Assembly: GCA_021776475.1 (NCBI GenBank) | Contig: JAJFFV010000005.1 | Coordinates: 248,001-312,000 of the forward strand | Length of the DNA: 64,000 nucleotides | Source of the DNA: Parvularculaceae bacterium | Lineage (GTDB): Bacteria; Pseudomonadota; Alphaproteobacteria; Caulobacterales; Parvularculaceae | Reading direction: 5' to 3' | Shown here: one piece after another, positions 1,469 to 14,331 of the stretch | How the letters are laid out: each line of letters begins with the position of its first letter | How positions within the stretch are numbered: the first letter of the stretch is position 1 | The notes under the pieces: model-generated | Database searches by the model: none | What the model saw: the letters and a program-made list of their open reading frames with translations, nothing else | What the model was told of the DNA's origin: nothing | Position numbers and translations under genes: made by a program

Positions 1469-1813
1469 ATGCTGATCAAGCTGAAACGTGCTTATGAAGC
1501 GCCGGCAAGAGCCGACGGCTACCGCGTACTGGTTGAACGACTATGGCCGCGCGGCGTCAGCAAGGATGAGGCGGCCTTGGATCGCTGGCTGAAGGACATT
1601 GCCCCCAGCCCTGAGTTGCGTAATTGGTACGGTCACGATCCTGAGAAGTGGCCCGAATTTCAACAACGATACCAACGTGAACTGATGGCTAACAACGACC
1701 AGGTCGAGGTGTTGCGGGCGCTCTGTGAACAAAAGACGGTGACCTTTATCTACGCAGCGAAGGACGAAGAGCACAACAGCGCTGTTGTGCTGAAGGCATT
1801 TCTGGACGGTTAG
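1469..1813 (+). CDS. DUF488 family (YeaO-like) protein
   Basis: GYRVLVERLWPRGVSKDEAALDRWLKDIAPSPELRNWYGHDPEKWPEF motif. Confidence 0.85.
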   Translation: MLIKLKRAYEAPARADGYRVLVERLWPRGVSKDEAALDRWLKDIAPSPELRNWYGHDPEKWPEFQQRYQRELMANNDQVEVLRALCEQKTVTFIYAAKDEEHNSAVVLKAFLDG

Positions 1814-2388
1814 GCCCGTTCAGCGGCGATATGCCTGTTGATCCAGTGTTGCGCCGTGCTTCTTGCATGCCTGGCGATAGTTGGATCGCCGGTGATTTGG
1901 GCAACCGCGACTGCCCCCTCCTGAAGCAGGTTTAGTTCGATCGCCAGGCGCTCTGGTTCGGGATGTTCTGCTGCGCGGGCAAGCTCTTCAAAATATGCGA
2001 GCACAAGCTTTTTGTGCATCCTTGCTTCTTGAAACACGGGGCTGCGTTTATCGTTGAACTCACTGGAGGCGCTCATAAACGGGCATCCATAAAACTCGTC
2101 GTCATTAATCCAGTGTTCCAGAAAATCGAATGTTAAAAGGAGCCTTTGTGTCGGATCAGCCCCCCCAGCTTCGACAAACTGACGCAGCGCCGCGCGGAAT
2201 TCGGCATCTTTCTTAGCAAGCACCGCGACAATCAGGTCTTCTTTGGTCTTAAAATGACGATAGAGGGTGGTTTTGGCGATGCCAGACTCGGCGATGATCC
2301 GGTCGATCCCGACACCATTGTACCCGTGCTTGTTGAACAGGTTCGTCGCCACCTCAACAAGATGGTACTTTTTTTCTGCCCGTTTCAT
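1810..2388 (-). CDS. TetR/AcrR family transcriptional regulator
   Basis: N-terminal HTH: ATNLFNKHGYNGVGIDRIIAESGIAKTTLYRHFKTKEDLIVAVL. Confidence 0.9.
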   Translation of the reverse strand: MKRAEKKYHLVEVATNLFNKHGYNGVGIDRIIAESGIAKTTLYRHFKTKEDLIVAVLAKKDAEFRAALRQFVEAGGADPTQRLLLTFDFLEHWINDDEFYGCPFMSASSEFNDKRSPVFQEARMHKKLVLAYFEELARAAEHPEPERLAIELNLLQEGAVAVAQITGDPTIARHARSTAQHWINRHIAAERA

Positions 2389-4313: not shown

Positions 4314-4589
4314 CTACTGAGTAGTATTGCTGGCAAATGTCGGCAACTCTATGAGACTTTGACTGGTCTCACTGCCGCTCGCGCTGCCCGTCAGCCCGGT
4401 CATTGCCAACCAAATAAGCCCCAGCACTATCGCCGCAATGAACGCTAGATCAAAAACCCTCTTCATGATGTTTGTCATTTTTTTCTCTCCCGCAGACTTC
4501 ACGTTAACCATAAAGAAGCCGATTATATTGCTCGCCAGGCCCTTAAGCGGGTTTTCAGAGCTTACACTTTTCCCTTTGTCTTGTGCCAT
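4314..4589 (-). CDS. Small single-TM hypothetical protein
   Basis: MAQDKGKSVSSENPLKGLASNIIGFF...VFDLAFIAAIVLGLIWLAMTGL. Confidence 0.4.
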   Translation of the reverse strand: MAQDKGKSVSSENPLKGLASNIIGFFMVNVKSAGEKKMTNIMKRVFDLAFIAAIVLGLIWLAMTGLTGSASGSETSQSLIELPTFASNTTQ

Positions 4590-7002: not shown

Positions 7003-7179
7003 ATGGAACGCATGGATTACACCAACGGCACCCCATTCTGGGAAGGATCCCGCTCCCTCGACGCGGGCACAGAGGCAAAGCGCGGTGGCCTCTCCAAAAC
7101 CATCAGTATCAGCATTGTCCTCACCGGCATCGCCCTCGTTGCGACACTGATTTACGCCCTGGGCGGGTTAGCCGGTTAG
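7003..7179 (+). CDS. Small single-TM protein (58 aa)
   Basis: MERMDYTNGTPFWEGSRSLDAGTEAKRGGLSKTISISIVLTGIALVATLIYALGGLAG; GGAGAG RBS at 6991-6996. Confidence 0.55.
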   Translation: MERMDYTNGTPFWEGSRSLDAGTEAKRGGLSKTISISIVLTGIALVATLIYALGGLAG

Positions 7180-7654: not shown

Positions 7655-7722
7655 GTGAGTGAATGCTCACTATTTTGTTGACGCCGGCAAAAAGCGCCCC
7701 TAAGGTCTGAGCAAGCGCTCAC
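7655..7722. promoter_or_regulatory. Promoter flanked by two 16-bp operator-like palindromes
   Basis: GTGAGTGAATGCTCAC (7655-7670) and CTGAGCAAGCGCTCAC (7707-7722) flank TTGACG-N17-TAAGGT. Confidence 0.7.
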
Positions 7723-7816
7723 TTACACGAACTTCAGGGAAACTGAGGTGGCAAGGGAGAGCCACCGGAAGCTGGTGTGACGTGTGCGCGAGCAGTTTAA
7801 AAAGGCAGAAAGACCG

Positions 7817-7978
7817 ATGACACACAATTCATTTTTACAATCAGGCCTTTACAGCCAGATGAATGGAGGCGCGTTCCGCGAGGAAAAACCCAGCAATCCT
7901 GCGGCCGTTGGCGTGACCGGGTTGCTCGTCTTGATCACGTTGATAGCGCTCGGTAATCTGATCATTTCCGCCATTTGA
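7817..7978 (+). CDS. Small single-TM protein (53 aa)
   Basis: MTHNSFLQSGLYSQMNGGAFREEKPSNPAAVGVTGLLVLITLIALGNLIISAI; own promoter and downstream terminator. Confidence 0.6.
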   Translation: MTHNSFLQSGLYSQMNGGAFREEKPSNPAAVGVTGLLVLITLIALGNLIISAI

Positions 7979-8100
7979 AGAATTCGAAACCGGTTCTCCG
8001 AACCGTCCCCTTCCATTTCGGGTCCTGATCGCCGTTCCCTTGCTGCCTGCCCTGGCAGCTCCTGACAGGGCCCCGGAAGGGGGCGTGCCCTCCTAAACTG

Positions 8101-8128
8101 CCCCGCCCTCACCGGCGGGGCTTTTTTT
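8101..8128 (+). terminator. Rho-independent terminator
   Basis: CCCCGCCctcaccGGCGGGGCTTTTTTT. Confidence 0.85.
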
Positions 8129-8281
8129 GCCGCTCAGCCATGACGTCAGCATTGCCCCGACTGGATAAAATTGGCAATCTATGGGCTGGCTTCCGGCTAG
8201 CTCATCGCTTTTGCGTGAGTGGCTGCAGCAAACGCCAGAGTCTGAACCCAAACCATTTGCTGAGAAAAAAGGTAAGCCGGC

Positions 8282-9550
8282 ATGAGATTCACAACCTATT
8301 GCGGGCTTATTTTTAGCGCCATGCGGCGCTATGTGCAGACAACAAAAAACGGTCGCGTTCTTTTCTTTGCGTTAGTCCCCTTGTTCGGTTTCATTGCGTT
8401 GACAGCAATAATACCTGACGGTCCGAACCGCACTGTTGCAGCTGAGCTAAATTTTACTGAGGCAACGGACGCGTTCGTGGCGCGGGCGGGCGCAGCATTA
8501 CCGGATATGGACCCGATCACCATCGATACGTTGCGCGCTGCGGTCGAAAATCTGACCGGCAGTAGCGATCGCGTGAAACGCCAGGCCTTCCGCGCCTTCG
8601 CCGATCAAGACAGGGCCGGCGCGATTGCCACGCTTGCAGCGCATGCGCAAGCACAAGCTGATGCCGGCGAAACTGGTGAAGCATTGCGTAGCTGGAAACA
8701 GACGGGGGCGCTCGCCTTTCTGGTTGATCCCGCCGCGAGCATCCGTGCCTACGAGGCAGCACTTGTGCTGGCACCGACGGATCCGTCGGTGCGCAGCCAA
8801 CTGGGTCTTCTTTACAGTCAGGCCGGGCGCGACCTGGAAGCCATTACACAGTTTTTGTCTGTTCTTGATACCGAAAACCTTACCGGCACCGCCTGGGAGG
8901 CGTCCGCCTTTGGTAATCTCGGTATTCTCGCCATCCGGCGCGGCGATATGGACAAGGCTGAATATTATGTCCTGCAAAGCCTGCAGCTGAACGAAAAGCT
9001 TGAGCGACGCAAGGCAGCTGGCCTGCAACACGCCAATCTTGCGGTGATCGCGGGCACTTTCGACAAGGAAATAGCCGTGGAGCGCAATCTGAAACGCGCG
9101 CTCACGATTTTCGAGGATTTGGGAGAGCAGGAAAACGCCGCCCAGGTTCTCGGCAATCTCGGGGTTTTTGAGCGCAACCGTGATAATCAGGATACGGCAG
9201 AACAATATCTGACCAAAAGCTATGAGCTCTATCGCGCGCTTGGCGACAAACAGGGTATGGCGACGCAGCTGGATGCGCTTGCCCGAACCGAACGCCGATT
9301 TGGCAACCGTGACCAGGCTGAGGCCTACTACAAACAAAGCCTGACGCTAAATCAGGCACTGGGACACAGGCAAGCTGTCGCCGTACAATTTGCGAGCCTT
9401 GGCGGGATAGAGCTTGAGCGCGAACGTATCGATGGCGCCTGTACTTATTGGCGCGAAGCTTGGAACATTTTTGATGACGTCGGCCCGGCCGCAAGCCGCG
9501 ATCAGGTGCAAAGCTGGCTCGATGTCACGGGATGTCAGGAGGCGGAGTAG
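8282..9550 (+). CDS. Membrane-anchored TPR protein
   Basis: N-terminal TM (VLFFALVPLFGFIALTAII) plus multiple TPRs. Confidence 0.85.
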   Translation: MRFTTYCGLIFSAMRRYVQTTKNGRVLFFALVPLFGFIALTAIIPDGPNRTVAAELNFTEATDAFVARAGAALPDMDPITIDTLRAAVENLTGSSDRVKRQAFRAFADQDRAGAIATLAAHAQAQADAGETGEALRSWKQTGALAFLVDPAASIRAYEAALVLAPTDPSVRSQLGLLYSQAGRDLEAITQFLSVLDTENLTGTAWEASAFGNLGILAIRRGDMDKAEYYVLQSLQLNEKLERRKAAGLQHANLAVIAGTFDKEIAVERNLKRALTIFEDLGEQENAAQVLGNLGVFERNRDNQDTAEQYLTKSYELYRALGDKQGMATQLDALARTERRFGNRDQAEAYYKQSLTLNQALGHRQAVAVQFASLGGIELERERIDGACTYWREAWNIFDDVGPAASRDQVQSWLDVTGCQEAE

Positions 9551-11043
9551 TGTTCAGATTCTCATTCCTCATATTTAGCACAATTGCGAGTTTTGCGATC
9601 TCGACCAATCTCGGGCGGATCATGACGACACTGTCCGTGGTCGCCAGCATCGTCACGATCTGGATGTTTATGACTGACACTTCGGCAACGAAAGGTGATT
9701 TGAAAGAAGCGGTTGAGACCGTGATTGCCGAAGTTCAGCGGCAGAACCCGGGATTCGATCCTGCGACGGTTGAGGCGTTCCGGAGTTCGCTCGGTGCACT
9801 GGCGAAATCTGGCGATGCGCGAAAGCAGAAAGCATTACAAGAATATTTGGAAGGCGATGCAAATCTTGCCCTTTCCGATCTTGAGGAGTTGGCGGAAGAT
9901 CAGGCGCGCGCGGCGACTGTGCAGGCTCGCGAAATGGCCGCGACGTGGAAAGAGATCGGCGCCCTCTCCATGCCTGTGGATACCGGCCGCGCGCTCGCTG
10001 CCTATACGAAAGCAGTGCAGGTAACACCGGACGACCCGGAGGCTCGGGTCAGGCTCGGGCAGTTGTTTGTTCGCGTTGGCCAGCTGGCTGAGGCGGAAAC
10101 TCAATATCGTCACATCCTCGACAATGTGAAAAATTTCGAGCCTTGGCAAATTACAGACGCGCTGAACAATCTTGGGAACATTCTACAAATTCGCGGCGAC
10201 CTCGGTCAGGCGGAGGGGTATTTTCAGCGTGCACTGTCGCTGGCTGAAGAAGGTGGCGACAAGCCGGGGATCGCGGACAGTCTCGCCAGCCTCGGGTTGA
10301 TCGAAAAGACCCGGGGCAATTTTGATGTCGCGGAAAATTATCATCAGCGGGCGTTGCTGATTGACGAAGAGTTGAATAACAAGGCCGGAATGGCAAGCCA
10401 ATATGGTATTCTCGGCATTATCGAACAGGATCGCAATAATTTCGACCAAGCCATTGACTATCAAAAACGTAGTTTGGCGATCAACCAGGAACTGGGAATC
10501 CTTGATGGAATTGCCGGCGATTATATAAATCTCGGTGTGGTCGAGAACCTGCGCGGCAATATTAATCTCGCTGAAGATTATTTCAAACGCAGCCTTGAAA
10601 TCAACGAAGAGCTTGGCGACAAGCAAAGCACCGCCATCGCGCTTGGCAATCTCGGCGACGTGGAAAGAGCACGAGGCAACCTCGACGCGGCGGAGACCTA
10701 CTATACGCGGTCGGTGAAGATGGGAAAAGAAATCGGTGCCATAGAGGGGATTGCCTATGGTTTCAGCGACCTCGGCATCATCGAAGAAATGCGCGGCAAT
10801 CCCAACAAGGCGCAAGAATATTATCTGAGCAGCCTGACATTGTTCGATGAGATAGGCAGCGCGGACAACAAAGCCTACATATTGCGCGAATTGGGATATC
10901 TCTCCGGCAAGCTCGATGAGCTTGAGAGCGTTTGCACTTACTGGTTAAAGGCGAGAGATATTTTCGTGGAAATCAAGTTTCACGAAAATGCCTCGGACAT
11001 GCAAAATCGCCTCACCGAGGTCGGATGTACCGTGGCTGAGTAG
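9550..11043 (+). CDS. Membrane-anchored TPR protein, paralogue of upstream gene
   Basis: Repeated LGxxExxRGNxxxAExYYxRSLxxxEELGDK units; GTG at 9550 overlaps upstream stop (tagtg); ORF can extend to 9532. Confidence 0.85.
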   Translation: MFRFSFLIFSTIASFAISTNLGRIMTTLSVVASIVTIWMFMTDTSATKGDLKEAVETVIAEVQRQNPGFDPATVEAFRSSLGALAKSGDARKQKALQEYLEGDANLALSDLEELAEDQARAATVQAREMAATWKEIGALSMPVDTGRALAAYTKAVQVTPDDPEARVRLGQLFVRVGQLAEAETQYRHILDNVKNFEPWQITDALNNLGNILQIRGDLGQAEGYFQRALSLAEEGGDKPGIADSLASLGLIEKTRGNFDVAENYHQRALLIDEELNNKAGMASQYGILGIIEQDRNNFDQAIDYQKRSLAINQELGILDGIAGDYINLGVVENLRGNINLAEDYFKRSLEINEELGDKQSTAIALGNLGDVERARGNLDAAETYYTRSVKMGKEIGAIEGIAYGFSDLGIIEEMRGNPNKAQEYYLSSLTLFDEIGSADNKAYILRELGYLSGKLDELESVCTYWLKARDIFVEIKFHENASDMQNRLTEVGCTVAE

Positions 11044-11049
11044 CGCCCT

Positions 11050-13227
11050 CTATTGCTTCGCGATCTCTTCGTAGAATGCCTTGTCGCGGCCGCTATTTGC
11101 CTCCGAGATCACATAGGCGCGGATCGCTGCAGCTGTTTCTTCGTCGATCAGTCCACTGAAGTCCGGCATGCCCAAAGGGGCCAGTGCCCCCTCAACAACG
11201 ACTGATCGCCACGCCTCTTCATCTGCCGTCATGGGCGAGAACCGAAGGTTGGGCACCAGCCCGGAGGAGTAGGCCTGATCACCATGGCAAACACTGCAAT
11301 AATCGCCATACGCCCGCTGCCCGGCGGCTATAATGTCTGGATCGGCGGTGATGAGCGCCGGCACGTCAATAGGGCCTGCGACATTTTCAAGCTCAGGCAA
11401 ACTACCGTTGGCAGCAAGTTTGAAGGCCAGTATTCGACCTAACTTTGCTTCGCTACCGGTCGGGAAGACGCCGCCGTAACCGAGCACAAACGAGCCGCCC
11501 CACCCGGCCGCGACGGCAACATACTGGTCATCACCAATTTTATACGAGATCGGGGCGGCAACAATACCGGTCTGGGTGAAGAAGCGCCATTTTTTTTCAC
11601 CTGTCCTTGCATCATAGGCGGCAAAATGGGCATCGGCTGTTCCCTGAAAAACCAGACCACCGGCTGTCGACAAAACGCCGCCATTCCACGGGCCACCATG
11701 TTCAACAGCCCAGACAGCTTCCTGTTTGACGGGATCCCAGGCGAGCAAGCGGCCTTTCAACGCCGCTTTGGCCGCCTTGAACTGAGCGGCTTCAGTCGGC
11801 AGGGCCGAGTAGAAGAAATCGCTGCCGGTGTTCCAGAGATTATCCTTATAGGTAAAATCAGGATCCTCGCCATAAGCCCAGGGCGCTTCCTGTGCCGGAA
11901 TATATACAAGACCAGTATCAGGACTGTATGACATAGGGTGCCAGTTATGAGCCCCGAGGGGGCCCGGCAATTGTCCGTAAGGCTGCTTGCCCGGCCAGCG
12001 CGCAGCGGCGATTTCGGCCGGACGGCCGGTTTCCATATCGATATGTGTGGCCCAGTTTACAGGCACGAAGTTCTGAGCCGACAACAGTTCGCCATTTTCA
12101 CGATCGAGCACATAAAAGAAACCGTTCTTCGGCGCTTGCATGATCACTTTACGCACTGCACCGTCAACTTCGAGATCGGCCAGAATCATGTGCTGGGTTG
12201 CGGTGAAATCCCAGGTTTCGGCAGGCGTTGTTTGATAATGCCAGACATATTCCCCCGTGTCCGGACGAAGCGCGACGATCGAAGAAAGGAAGAGATTGTC
12301 GCCGCCATCAGGGCTTCGTAGCTGGTGGTTCCACGGCGACCCATTGCCGACACCGATATAGAACAGGTCTAGTTCGGGATCATAGGCCATGGAATCCCAG
12401 ACCGTGCCGCCACCATCGCCAACTTCCCACCAGCGTCCCGTCCAGGTTTGCGCAATACGCTTCATCAGCTTGTTTTCATGACCCTCAGCCGGATTTCCGG
12501 GAACAGTGTAGAAGCGCCAAAGCTGATCGCCGGTTTCCGCGTCATACGCGGTGACATAACCGCGGACGCCAAGCTCGGCGCCGCCATTCCCAATGATAAC
12601 CTTGCCTTTGACAATGCGCGGGGCACCGGTGATGGAATAGGGTTTGGACAGATCAACCGTCCCGACATCCCAAGCCGCCTCGCCGTTTTTGGCATCAATC
12701 GCAATCAGGCGCCCGTCAATTGTTCCCATATAGACTTTATCACCCCAGATGGCGACGCCTCGATTGACAACATCGCAACAAAGAATAGCGGCGCGCGACT
12801 TGTCGACTTTCGGGTCATAGCGCCAAATTTCCTTGCCGGTTGTGGCATCGAGGGCATGAACGACATTCCAGTTCGCGGTGACATATATGATACCGTCATG
12901 AACGATCGGAGTTGCCTCGATACCGCGACTGGTGCCCAGATCAAACGACCAGGCAAGGCCAAGATCACCGGCGTTTTCTGCAGTTATCGTTGCGAGAGGA
13001 GAAAAACGCTGTTCTGAATAGGTCCGTCCGTGCGACAGCCACTCGCCGGGATTGGCATCAGCTTCGATGATGTCCGTAGCAGTGATGAGATCTTGTTCGG
13101 GGGCAGTTGCGCGGTCGTGCGCGCTCACTGTTTGCGCCGGTTGTTCACCCCCATTGTTGCCGCAGCCCGGCACTAAAGATATAGCGGCACTGAGTGTTAA
13201 GAAACCTGCTATTTGACTAAAGCGCAT
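11050..13227 (-). CDS. PQQ-dependent quinohemoprotein alcohol dehydrogenase-type lipoprotein
   Basis: Beta-propeller repeats (VHALDATTGKEIWRYDP), vicinal CC (AILCCDVVNRG), ETWDFTATQ, C-terminal cytochrome c CSVCHG, lipobox LVPGC. Confidence 0.9.
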   Translation of the reverse strand: MRFSQIAGFLTLSAAISLVPGCGNNGGEQPAQTVSAHDRATAPEQDLITATDIIEADANPGEWLSHGRTYSEQRFSPLATITAENAGDLGLAWSFDLGTSRGIEATPIVHDGIIYVTANWNVVHALDATTGKEIWRYDPKVDKSRAAILCCDVVNRGVAIWGDKVYMGTIDGRLIAIDAKNGEAAWDVGTVDLSKPYSITGAPRIVKGKVIIGNGGAELGVRGYVTAYDAETGDQLWRFYTVPGNPAEGHENKLMKRIAQTWTGRWWEVGDGGGTVWDSMAYDPELDLFYIGVGNGSPWNHQLRSPDGGDNLFLSSIVALRPDTGEYVWHYQTTPAETWDFTATQHMILADLEVDGAVRKVIMQAPKNGFFYVLDRENGELLSAQNFVPVNWATHIDMETGRPAEIAAARWPGKQPYGQLPGPLGAHNWHPMSYSPDTGLVYIPAQEAPWAYGEDPDFTYKDNLWNTGSDFFYSALPTEAAQFKAAKAALKGRLLAWDPVKQEAVWAVEHGGPWNGGVLSTAGGLVFQGTADAHFAAYDARTGEKKWRFFTQTGIVAAPISYKIGDDQYVAVAAGWGGSFVLGYGGVFPTGSEAKLGRILAFKLAANGSLPELENVAGPIDVPALITADPDIIAAGQRAYGDYCSVCHGDQAYSSGLVPNLRFSPMTADEEAWRSVVVEGALAPLGMPDFSGLIDEETAAAIRAYVISEANSGRDKAFYEEIAKQ

Positions 13228-13492
13228 TTTGGAATCCTCCTTACCCTCATCCACTTCGTATCAAAGATGGCGCGGACCTGACACCCAAACAAACAGTGGC
13301 CGAGCTGAGGCCGCGAGGGCGCCGAATTATGGTTAACCAGCGAGCTCTCGTGAGGCTGGTGCGGCCCTTCGGCCTAAACAGAATGTGAGAAAAAGAATGA
13401 AAACGGCGATAGGTTTATTCTGATCTCGATAGGGTTTACTGAATAAAAACAATATCTTGACGTATCTATAAAGTATATTACGTAAAAGTAAT

Positions 13493-13561
13493 GTTAGTGA
13501 GCGCTCACATTTATTGACATTCTTTTCTGGTTAAGGTTATGGTCTGTGAGTAAGCGCTCAC
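13493..13561. promoter_or_regulatory. Promoter flanked by two 16-bp operator-like palindromes (second copy of the architecture)
   Basis: GTTAGTGAGCGCTCAC (13493-13508) and GTGAGTAAGCGCTCAC (13546-13561) flank TTGACA-N18-TATGGT. Confidence 0.7.
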
Positions 13562-13617
13562 TACCACATCCTGGAGAGAGATGAGAGCGGTAACAAACGG
13601 CAAAACGGAGAGAACCC

Positions 13618-13776
13618 ATGACCTACAACAAATTTTCAAACGGCGGCCTGTTCAACCAAATCAGTCACACCACAGCAGATGAGGCACCACACCGCAGTGG
13701 TGCTAAAAAAGTAATCGGTGTCCTCCTGGCACTGATGATCCTGGCTGCCGCCGGCGCTGGCTTCTGGTTCCTGTAA
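13618..13776 (+). CDS. Small single-TM protein (52 aa), not in supplied ORF track
   Basis: MTYNKFSNGGLFNQISHTTADEAPHRSGAKKVIGVLLALMILAAAGAGFWFL; GGAGAG RBS; own terminator. Confidence 0.65.
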   Translation: MTYNKFSNGGLFNQISHTTADEAPHRSGAKKVIGVLLALMILAAAGAGFWFL

Positions 13777-13889
13777 GGCTAGATCCGATGAAGAAGAAAT
13801 CATTCTTCGGGCTTAACCTTCAAGGAGTTGAGAGAGCCCTGAAGGTTAGTGACAGCTCAGGGTTGGGGGAGAACCGGGGCCCGTCACAC

Positions 13890-13930
13890 GAAACCCCTGC
13901 CGCTGCGTTCAGGCGGCAGGGGTTTTTCGT
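13890..13930 (+). terminator. Rho-independent terminator
   Basis: AAACCCCTGCCGCtgcgttcagGCGGCAGGGGTTTTT. Confidence 0.85.
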
Positions 13931-14331
13931 TTTCAGGAAAATTATCAGGGCGAAAGCGCGGCCAGGCAAATAAGACGCGGCAGCGCACCCCGCAATCGGC
14001 GCACGGCTCGGCCGGCGCTTTTTGCGGTAAAATGCACTGGACATTCGAAGCCATATGTCAGGAGGCTTGTGAAACCATTGAATACAGTCATCGGCACGAA
14101 TTTTTACCGCCTTGGTCTGGGTAGTCTTGCTGAAATCGACTGGAATTCTCCACAATCATCGAAATCGTGGAAAACTCATGCGCCGGCCTACTTGCCACAG
14201 GGTTTAGCAGGTGTAGATGGGAGAGGCTCATGCCCCACATGGGCATCGACCGGCGCAGCGCTGAAGGCCCCCAAACTCACCTACCCTAACTCCAGCGCGC
14301 GTCGGCATCCTTCCTTTGTTCTGCTACGCAC

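Follow-up and report, generated by a model that had tools for sequence, protein, structure and literature searches.

We consider it very likely that the four similar sites found in the window (the whole 64,000-nucleotide stretch of DNA analyzed, C5:248001-312000 of a 3.4-Mb genome in six contigs) are the operators of a single autoregulated TetR-family repressor. This repressor is encoded at G000:C5:567113-567736 in an apparent operon with PlsC-type 1-acylglycerol-3-phosphate acyltransferases, and is predicted to occlude the promoters that the sites enclose and to respond to a lipid-type effector. The sites, their geometry, their conservation, their co-occurrence with the TetR gene and the coding nature of the associated tiny ORFs are observed directly in the genomes compared.

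The original prediction described four GTGAG-N6-CTCAC sites, matching the 16-bp consensus GTGAGTRANYGCTCAC, which form two pairs with start-to-start distances of 52 and 53 bp. Each pair was said to enclose a sigma70-like promoter and to be followed by a tiny ORF with a single transmembrane (TM) segment and then by a terminator. All of these elements were recovered from the window sequence. The mismatches to the consensus are 0 (7655-7670), 2 (7707-7722), 1 (13493-13508) and 0 (13546-13561), and the features of the two loci, B and C, are as follows:

7655..7674, + strand: operator B1, predicted from sequence; the extended element, upstream of the -35 (16-mer at 7655-7670)
7678..7706, + strand: sigma70-like promoter TTGACG-N17-TAAGGT between operators B1 and B2; position kept in G001, G003 and G005
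7707..7726, + strand: operator B2, predicted from sequence; abuts the -10 and overlies the expected start (16-mer at 7707-7722)
7817..7978, + strand: ORF B, 53 aa with one hydrophobic segment; orthologues in G001, G003 and G005
8000..8087 (about 7990-8090), + strand: conserved stem-rich 3' region of the ORF B transcript
8100..8121, + strand: intrinsic terminator of ORF B
13493..13512, + strand: operator C1, predicted from sequence (16-mer at 13493-13508)
13514..13543, + strand: sigma70-like promoter TTGACA-N18-TATGGT between operators C1 and C2
13546..13565, + strand: operator C2, predicted from sequence; 2 nt past the -10 (16-mer at 13546-13561)
13618..13776, + strand: ORF C, 52 aa with one hydrophobic segment; orthologues in G001, G003 and G005
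13787..13937, + strand: conserved structured 3' region of the ORF C transcript, including the terminator hairpin at 13890-13926

The -35 starts 7 nt (B) or 5 nt (C) past the first site of its pair, and the -10 ends 0 nt (B) or 2 nt (C) before the second. When the 64 kb were scanned with a matrix built from six sites of the window's genome, exactly these four sites scored 18 or higher, compared with none in 40 first-order Markov controls.

When the complete genome was searched with the pattern, allowing up to two mismatches, nine of the sites recovered differed from it at no more than one position. Three pairs account for six of the nine, namely the two pairs of the window and a third. Between the sites of this third pair is TTGACA-N17-TACCGT; the gene immediately downstream encodes a TetR-family protein, and after it come two PlsC-like acyltransferase ORFs in tandem:

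C5:567019-567034 / 567069-567084: third operator pair, 50 bp apart, 305 kb away
G000:C5:567113-567736 (= L024:1614-2237): TetR gene, 207 aa

The regulator scores 47.2 bits against PF00440 (TetR_N; cut-off 24), and the first PlsC-like ORF scores 60.9 bits against PF01553 (cut-off 23). An AlphaFold2 model of the regulator shows a confident, all-helical and two-domain TetR fold (pLDDT 88.5). The best Foldseek matches of the model are TetR-family regulators, and its structural neighbours include the fatty-acid TetRs FasR and FadR, along with many others. Scanning the 500 bp upstream of all 18 TetR_N genes in the genome identified a site at this gene only (19.1 bits; next best 9.3). Another TetR gene, inside the window (1810-2388, minus strand), was rejected as the regulator, as no site is found within 500 bp of it (best score -1.7). 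Because the third pair boxes in the tetR gene's own promoter, the sites are assigned to that TetR. By inference, the regulator that the original prediction had left open is the TetR encoded beside plsC, and the proposed dedicated TetR-type repressor with paired operators around its promoters is supported both by the enclosed promoter of tetR itself and by the orthologues described below. A relaxed paired pattern (TNAG-N6-CTNA) yielded exactly these three pairs in the genome, and its reversed control gave as many; the specificity therefore rests on site quality and conservation.

The association between site and regulator extends to other bacteria. Among 61 genomes, consisting of the window's own and those of 60 relatives, the TetR is found in 28, and every full-length orthologue in this set has at least one recognizable site upstream. 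Of the 28 genomes that have the TetR, 18 contain a strict form of the extended site, which is absent from all 33 genomes lacking the TetR; the control is zero everywhere (Fisher 1e-8, by a test that ignores phylogenetic relatedness). The 340 bp upstream were also inspected at 80 named orthologue loci from Parvularculaceae, Hyphomonadaceae and Caulobacteraceae, of which the closest, 59-77% identical, are those of Aquisalinus; the window's genome therefore probably belongs to an Aquisalinus. A site is found upstream of 72 of the 80, compared with 1 of 769 control windows taken from the same loci (mostly coding DNA), and the remaining eight show no upstream site above the threshold. Site pairs are found upstream of 25 of the 80 and in none of the control windows. 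As pairs occur in only some of the orthologues, the sandwich of a promoter between two operators is not essential to the regulator everywhere. PlsC is encoded downstream of the TetR in 77 of the 80 (one locus truncated). In a set of 149 genomes, the strict paired pattern matches in 13 and its control pattern in one; outside the window's genome, the TetR gene is directly downstream at 11 of the 12 strict pair loci. Sites are also associated with other lipid-related genes: a pair is found at an acyl-ACP--phospholipid acyltransferase-like gene in G029, and in G002 and G004 a site is next to a FabH-like gene. G057, a genome of the same order, has two sites separated by about 33 bp and followed by a gene for a small secreted protein and then a DUF2145 gene (L236:1480-1875). 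A single conserved site followed by a small secreted protein is found in four Aquisalinus genomes (L025:1459-1520, L113:2313, L114:2425 and L115:2341), where it abuts a CRP-like palindrome, TGTGA-N6-TCACA.

In Aquisalinus, the sandwich is kept at four loci, which are the tetR-plsC operon and three genes for tiny TM proteins. In addition to ORF B and ORF C, the latter include an ORF located in a carotenoid cluster with phytoene synthase (PF00494), a phytoene-desaturase-like oxidoreductase and a hydroxylase-like gene as its neighbours:

L106:3014-3304, L110:3046-3310 and L112:3150-3320: third tiny single-TM ORF behind a sandwich, carotenoid cluster of G001, G003 and G005

The original prediction had made its case dependent on paired spacing being conserved in relatives, and pairs do recur at the orthologous loci of G001, G003 and G005, where the respective spacings are 53, 53 and 52 bp at ORF C, 50, 50 and 51 bp at ORF B, 51, 52 and 51 bp at tetR and 53, 53 and 53 bp at the carotenoid-cluster ORF. 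All 15 sandwiches have 34-37 bp between their sites, with a -35/-10-like pair inside this gap or at its edge. At both the ORF C locus and the carotenoid cluster, operator 1 is immediately preceded by a conserved AT-rich box, TTAC-N6..8-TAATG (13440-13492 of the window and L105-L112), possibly an UP element or the site of another regulator. An ORF of the window at 4314-4478 (minus strand; MTNIMKRVFDLAFIAAIVLG...) resembles the carotenoid-cluster ORF and has no operator upstream (best score 3.2). The gene order ORF B - TPR - TPR - ORF C of the window (7817-13776) is the same in G005 (L111); in the window's genome, ORF C is separated from the TPR genes by a gene encoding a PQQ dehydrogenase.

Both of the further points raised by the original prediction, possible looping and the position upstream of the divergent PQQ dehydrogenase, can be weighed against these comparisons. 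In four Aquisalinus genomes, the spacing at the four loci is 50-53 bp, or roughly five helical turns, which is what would be expected if two repressor dimers at the flanking operators touched each other, looped the roughly 50 bp between them and so trapped or excluded the polymerase, with the spacing set by helical phase. Such looping is quite unlikely, however. About 50 bp is short for an unassisted DNA loop, the spacings among the orthologues (34, 35, 37, 40, 44, 45, 47, 51, 52, 60 and 61 bp) do not keep the sites on one helical face, and the constant spacing in Aquisalinus is explained by the need to fit a -35/-10 promoter into a gap of 34-37 bp. Given spacings of 34-61 bp with no common helical phase, looping is unlikely as a general rule, and its role as a conserved requirement is not supported. 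It is very unlikely that the second pair controls the divergent PQQ dehydrogenase, besides or instead of ORF C. The start of the dehydrogenase gene is about 240-260 bp from operator C1 in the window, but in G001 and G003 this gene is convergent and lies beyond ORF C, and G005 has none in the vicinity; in all three, the pair is still upstream of ORF C. Because the pair stays with ORF C where the dehydrogenase has moved or is absent, it belongs to ORF C.

The element conserved across the 72 orthologous sites is about 20 bp and thus longer than the 16-mer; its logo is GTRAGYGA-N-YRMTCACTT(GC), in which A3, G4, T12, A14 and C15 are invariant. Two overlapping palindromes fit this logo, namely GTGAG-N6-CTCAC and AGTGA-N4-TCACT, the centre of the second being 2 bp further on, and the true centre of the element may be located 2 bp downstream of that of the 16-mer. 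Operator C1 contains GTGAGCGCTCAC, which is also the core of the symmetric lac operator. The 20-mer GTAAGTGAGCGCTCACTTAC, present upstream of one orthologue (L194), is contained exactly (20/20) in AAGTAAGTGAGCGCTCACTTACGT, the oligonucleotide used for testing E. coli SlmA (PMC7468209), and the window sites match it at 14-16 of 20 positions. A literature search with six such motif strings returned nothing beyond SlmA papers. By the precedent of SlmA, which occupies its box as four monomers (PMC7468209), two dimers may bind to each operator here. This resemblance, a best NCBIfam match over the helix-turn-helix (HTH) to SlmA (9e-11) and an HTH identity of 43% with SlmA over 40 aa would all be accounted for if the regulator were an alphaproteobacterial SlmA, the nucleoid-occlusion factor acting on FtsZ, and the sites its boxes. 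We nevertheless regard this as highly improbable. The regulator scores only 41.7 bits against the NCBIfam SlmA equivalog (cut-off 120), and the SlmA residues needed for FtsZ control, F65, R73, R101 and N102 (PMC3573117), align with the unlike N77, L85, D113 and D114 of the regulator (P0001). While E. coli has about 50 dispersed SlmA sites, mainly in coding regions (PMC3116907), the many dispersed sites outside Ter are not seen here, where the near-consensus sites number only nine with six of them around three promoters, and the conserved promoter geometry fits transcription control. In its reading of DNA the regulator seems to resemble SlmA, but as judged by these tests it is not an SlmA. It is also highly unlikely that a different regulator, of the LacI type or another TetR, reads the sites and that tetR is merely one of its targets. 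The shared lac operator core speaks for a LacI-type reader, but the sites follow tetR in 72 of the 80 orthologues across three families, their strict form is confined to genomes with tetR, their centre varies, unlike that of LacI sites, and an SlmA-like HTH suits the half-site.

ORF B and ORF C are under purifying selection, with pN/pS of 0.03-0.14 between species, which indicates that these tiny ORFs are real genes. Searches of Pfam and NCBIfam with the tiny ORFs identified no family; our best guess is that their products are membrane-associated accessory or regulatory peptides. Upstream of the ORF B sandwich is one more tiny single-TM ORF, ORF A (7003-7179, 58 aa), which has no operator of its own. 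The regions 3' of ORF B and ORF C are structured, with folding z-scores of -4.2 (B, window) and -3.8 (C, G003). Compensatory changes are found at 14 of the 43 predicted pairs of the C region, in four sequences only, and this region includes an invariant GGGTTGGGGGAGAACC segment/hairpin; covariation is almost absent from the B region (2 of 27 pairs). Rfam gave only sub-threshold matches and no confident family for either 3' region. Among these, a suhB/mmgR match over the ORF B terminator (8063-8136; 25.3 bits, gathering score 41) was not taken as real. Covariance models of both regions detected no copies in 41 genomes beyond the four Aquisalinus sequences used for building them.

Based on these results, we infer that the TetR encoded beside plsC binds to the sites and represses both the tetR-plsC operon to which it belongs and the genes of the tiny ORFs, and that a lipid-type effector relieves this repression. 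With operator 1 just upstream of the -35 and operator 2 covering the expected start and the last part of the -10, the bound repressor would shut RNA polymerase out from both sides by steric occlusion, without a need for looping. The two window promoters would give rise to short mRNAs that encode two paralogous single-TM proteins, the products of ORF B and ORF C, and that each carry a conserved structured 3' region and a terminator. On derepression by an effector such as an acyl-CoA, an acyl-ACP or a lysophospholipid, the small membrane proteins would be made alongside the phospholipid acyltransferase. The genes nearby and a fold similarity of a generic kind point to a lipid as the probable effector: the constant partner of the regulator is plsC, a pair accompanies the acyltransferase-like gene of G029, a FabH-like gene adjoins a site and fatty-acid TetRs are among the structural neighbours. 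A bolder idea, which we offer tentatively and consider rather unlikely, is that this Caulobacterales TetR with its SlmA-type box senses the phospholipid state of the membrane, through a lipid ligand or, as has been reported for SlmA, by binding to the membrane directly, and turns on plsC and the tiny membrane proteins with their structured 3' RNAs as a membrane-remodelling regulon, of which the small proteins and 3' RNAs would be the main outputs.

The analysis ties orphan operators to a specific and widely conserved TetR-plsC operon of Caulobacterales that is undescribed in the literature searched; searches for a TetR with plsC or an acyltransferase in Alphaproteobacteria returned no description of this regulator. 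It also provides an operator sequence and predicted targets, including three unannotated tiny membrane proteins. An SlmA-like box is apparently used by a TetR that is no division factor, which calls for caution when nucleoid occlusion sites are assigned by motif only. The mechanism is of a known kind, while the regulon, with its tiny membrane protein outputs and SlmA-type operator, is apparently new in the literature searched.

The TetR of Tn10 is an autorepressor with the paired operators tetO1 and tetO2. It shares with the regulator described here the TetR_N HTH and palindromic operators flanking or over the promoter, as well as the autoregulation and occlusion of polymerase that are predicted here. 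In contrast to Tn10, the pairs here enclose single, non-divergent promoters at several unlinked loci, including those of tiny TM genes, and the neighbouring gene encodes an acyltransferase rather than an efflux pump. SlmA of E. coli and Vibrio has nearly the same DNA box and HTH (T33/T45, E45/E57 and ALYRH are kept) and can act on transcription in V. cholerae (PMC3116907, PMC5519180, PMC7468209). The regulator described here differs from SlmA in that the FtsZ-contact residues are not kept, the sites are few and at promoters, an operon with plsC is formed and the SlmA model score is below the cut-off. Lipid genes are likewise controlled by the TetR-family proteins FabR, PsrA and FadP, whose regulons are described in PMC5343134; in the available part of that source, this regulator is not among the TetR regulators covered, and, compared with the three as presented there, its operator is of the SlmA type and its conserved targets are plsC and small membrane proteins. 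Finally, the SOS-regulated DinQ (PMC3567139) is likewise a single-TM peptide encoded by a short, operator-controlled gene; its repressor is a different one, and its likeness to the tiny ORFs described here is one of gene type.
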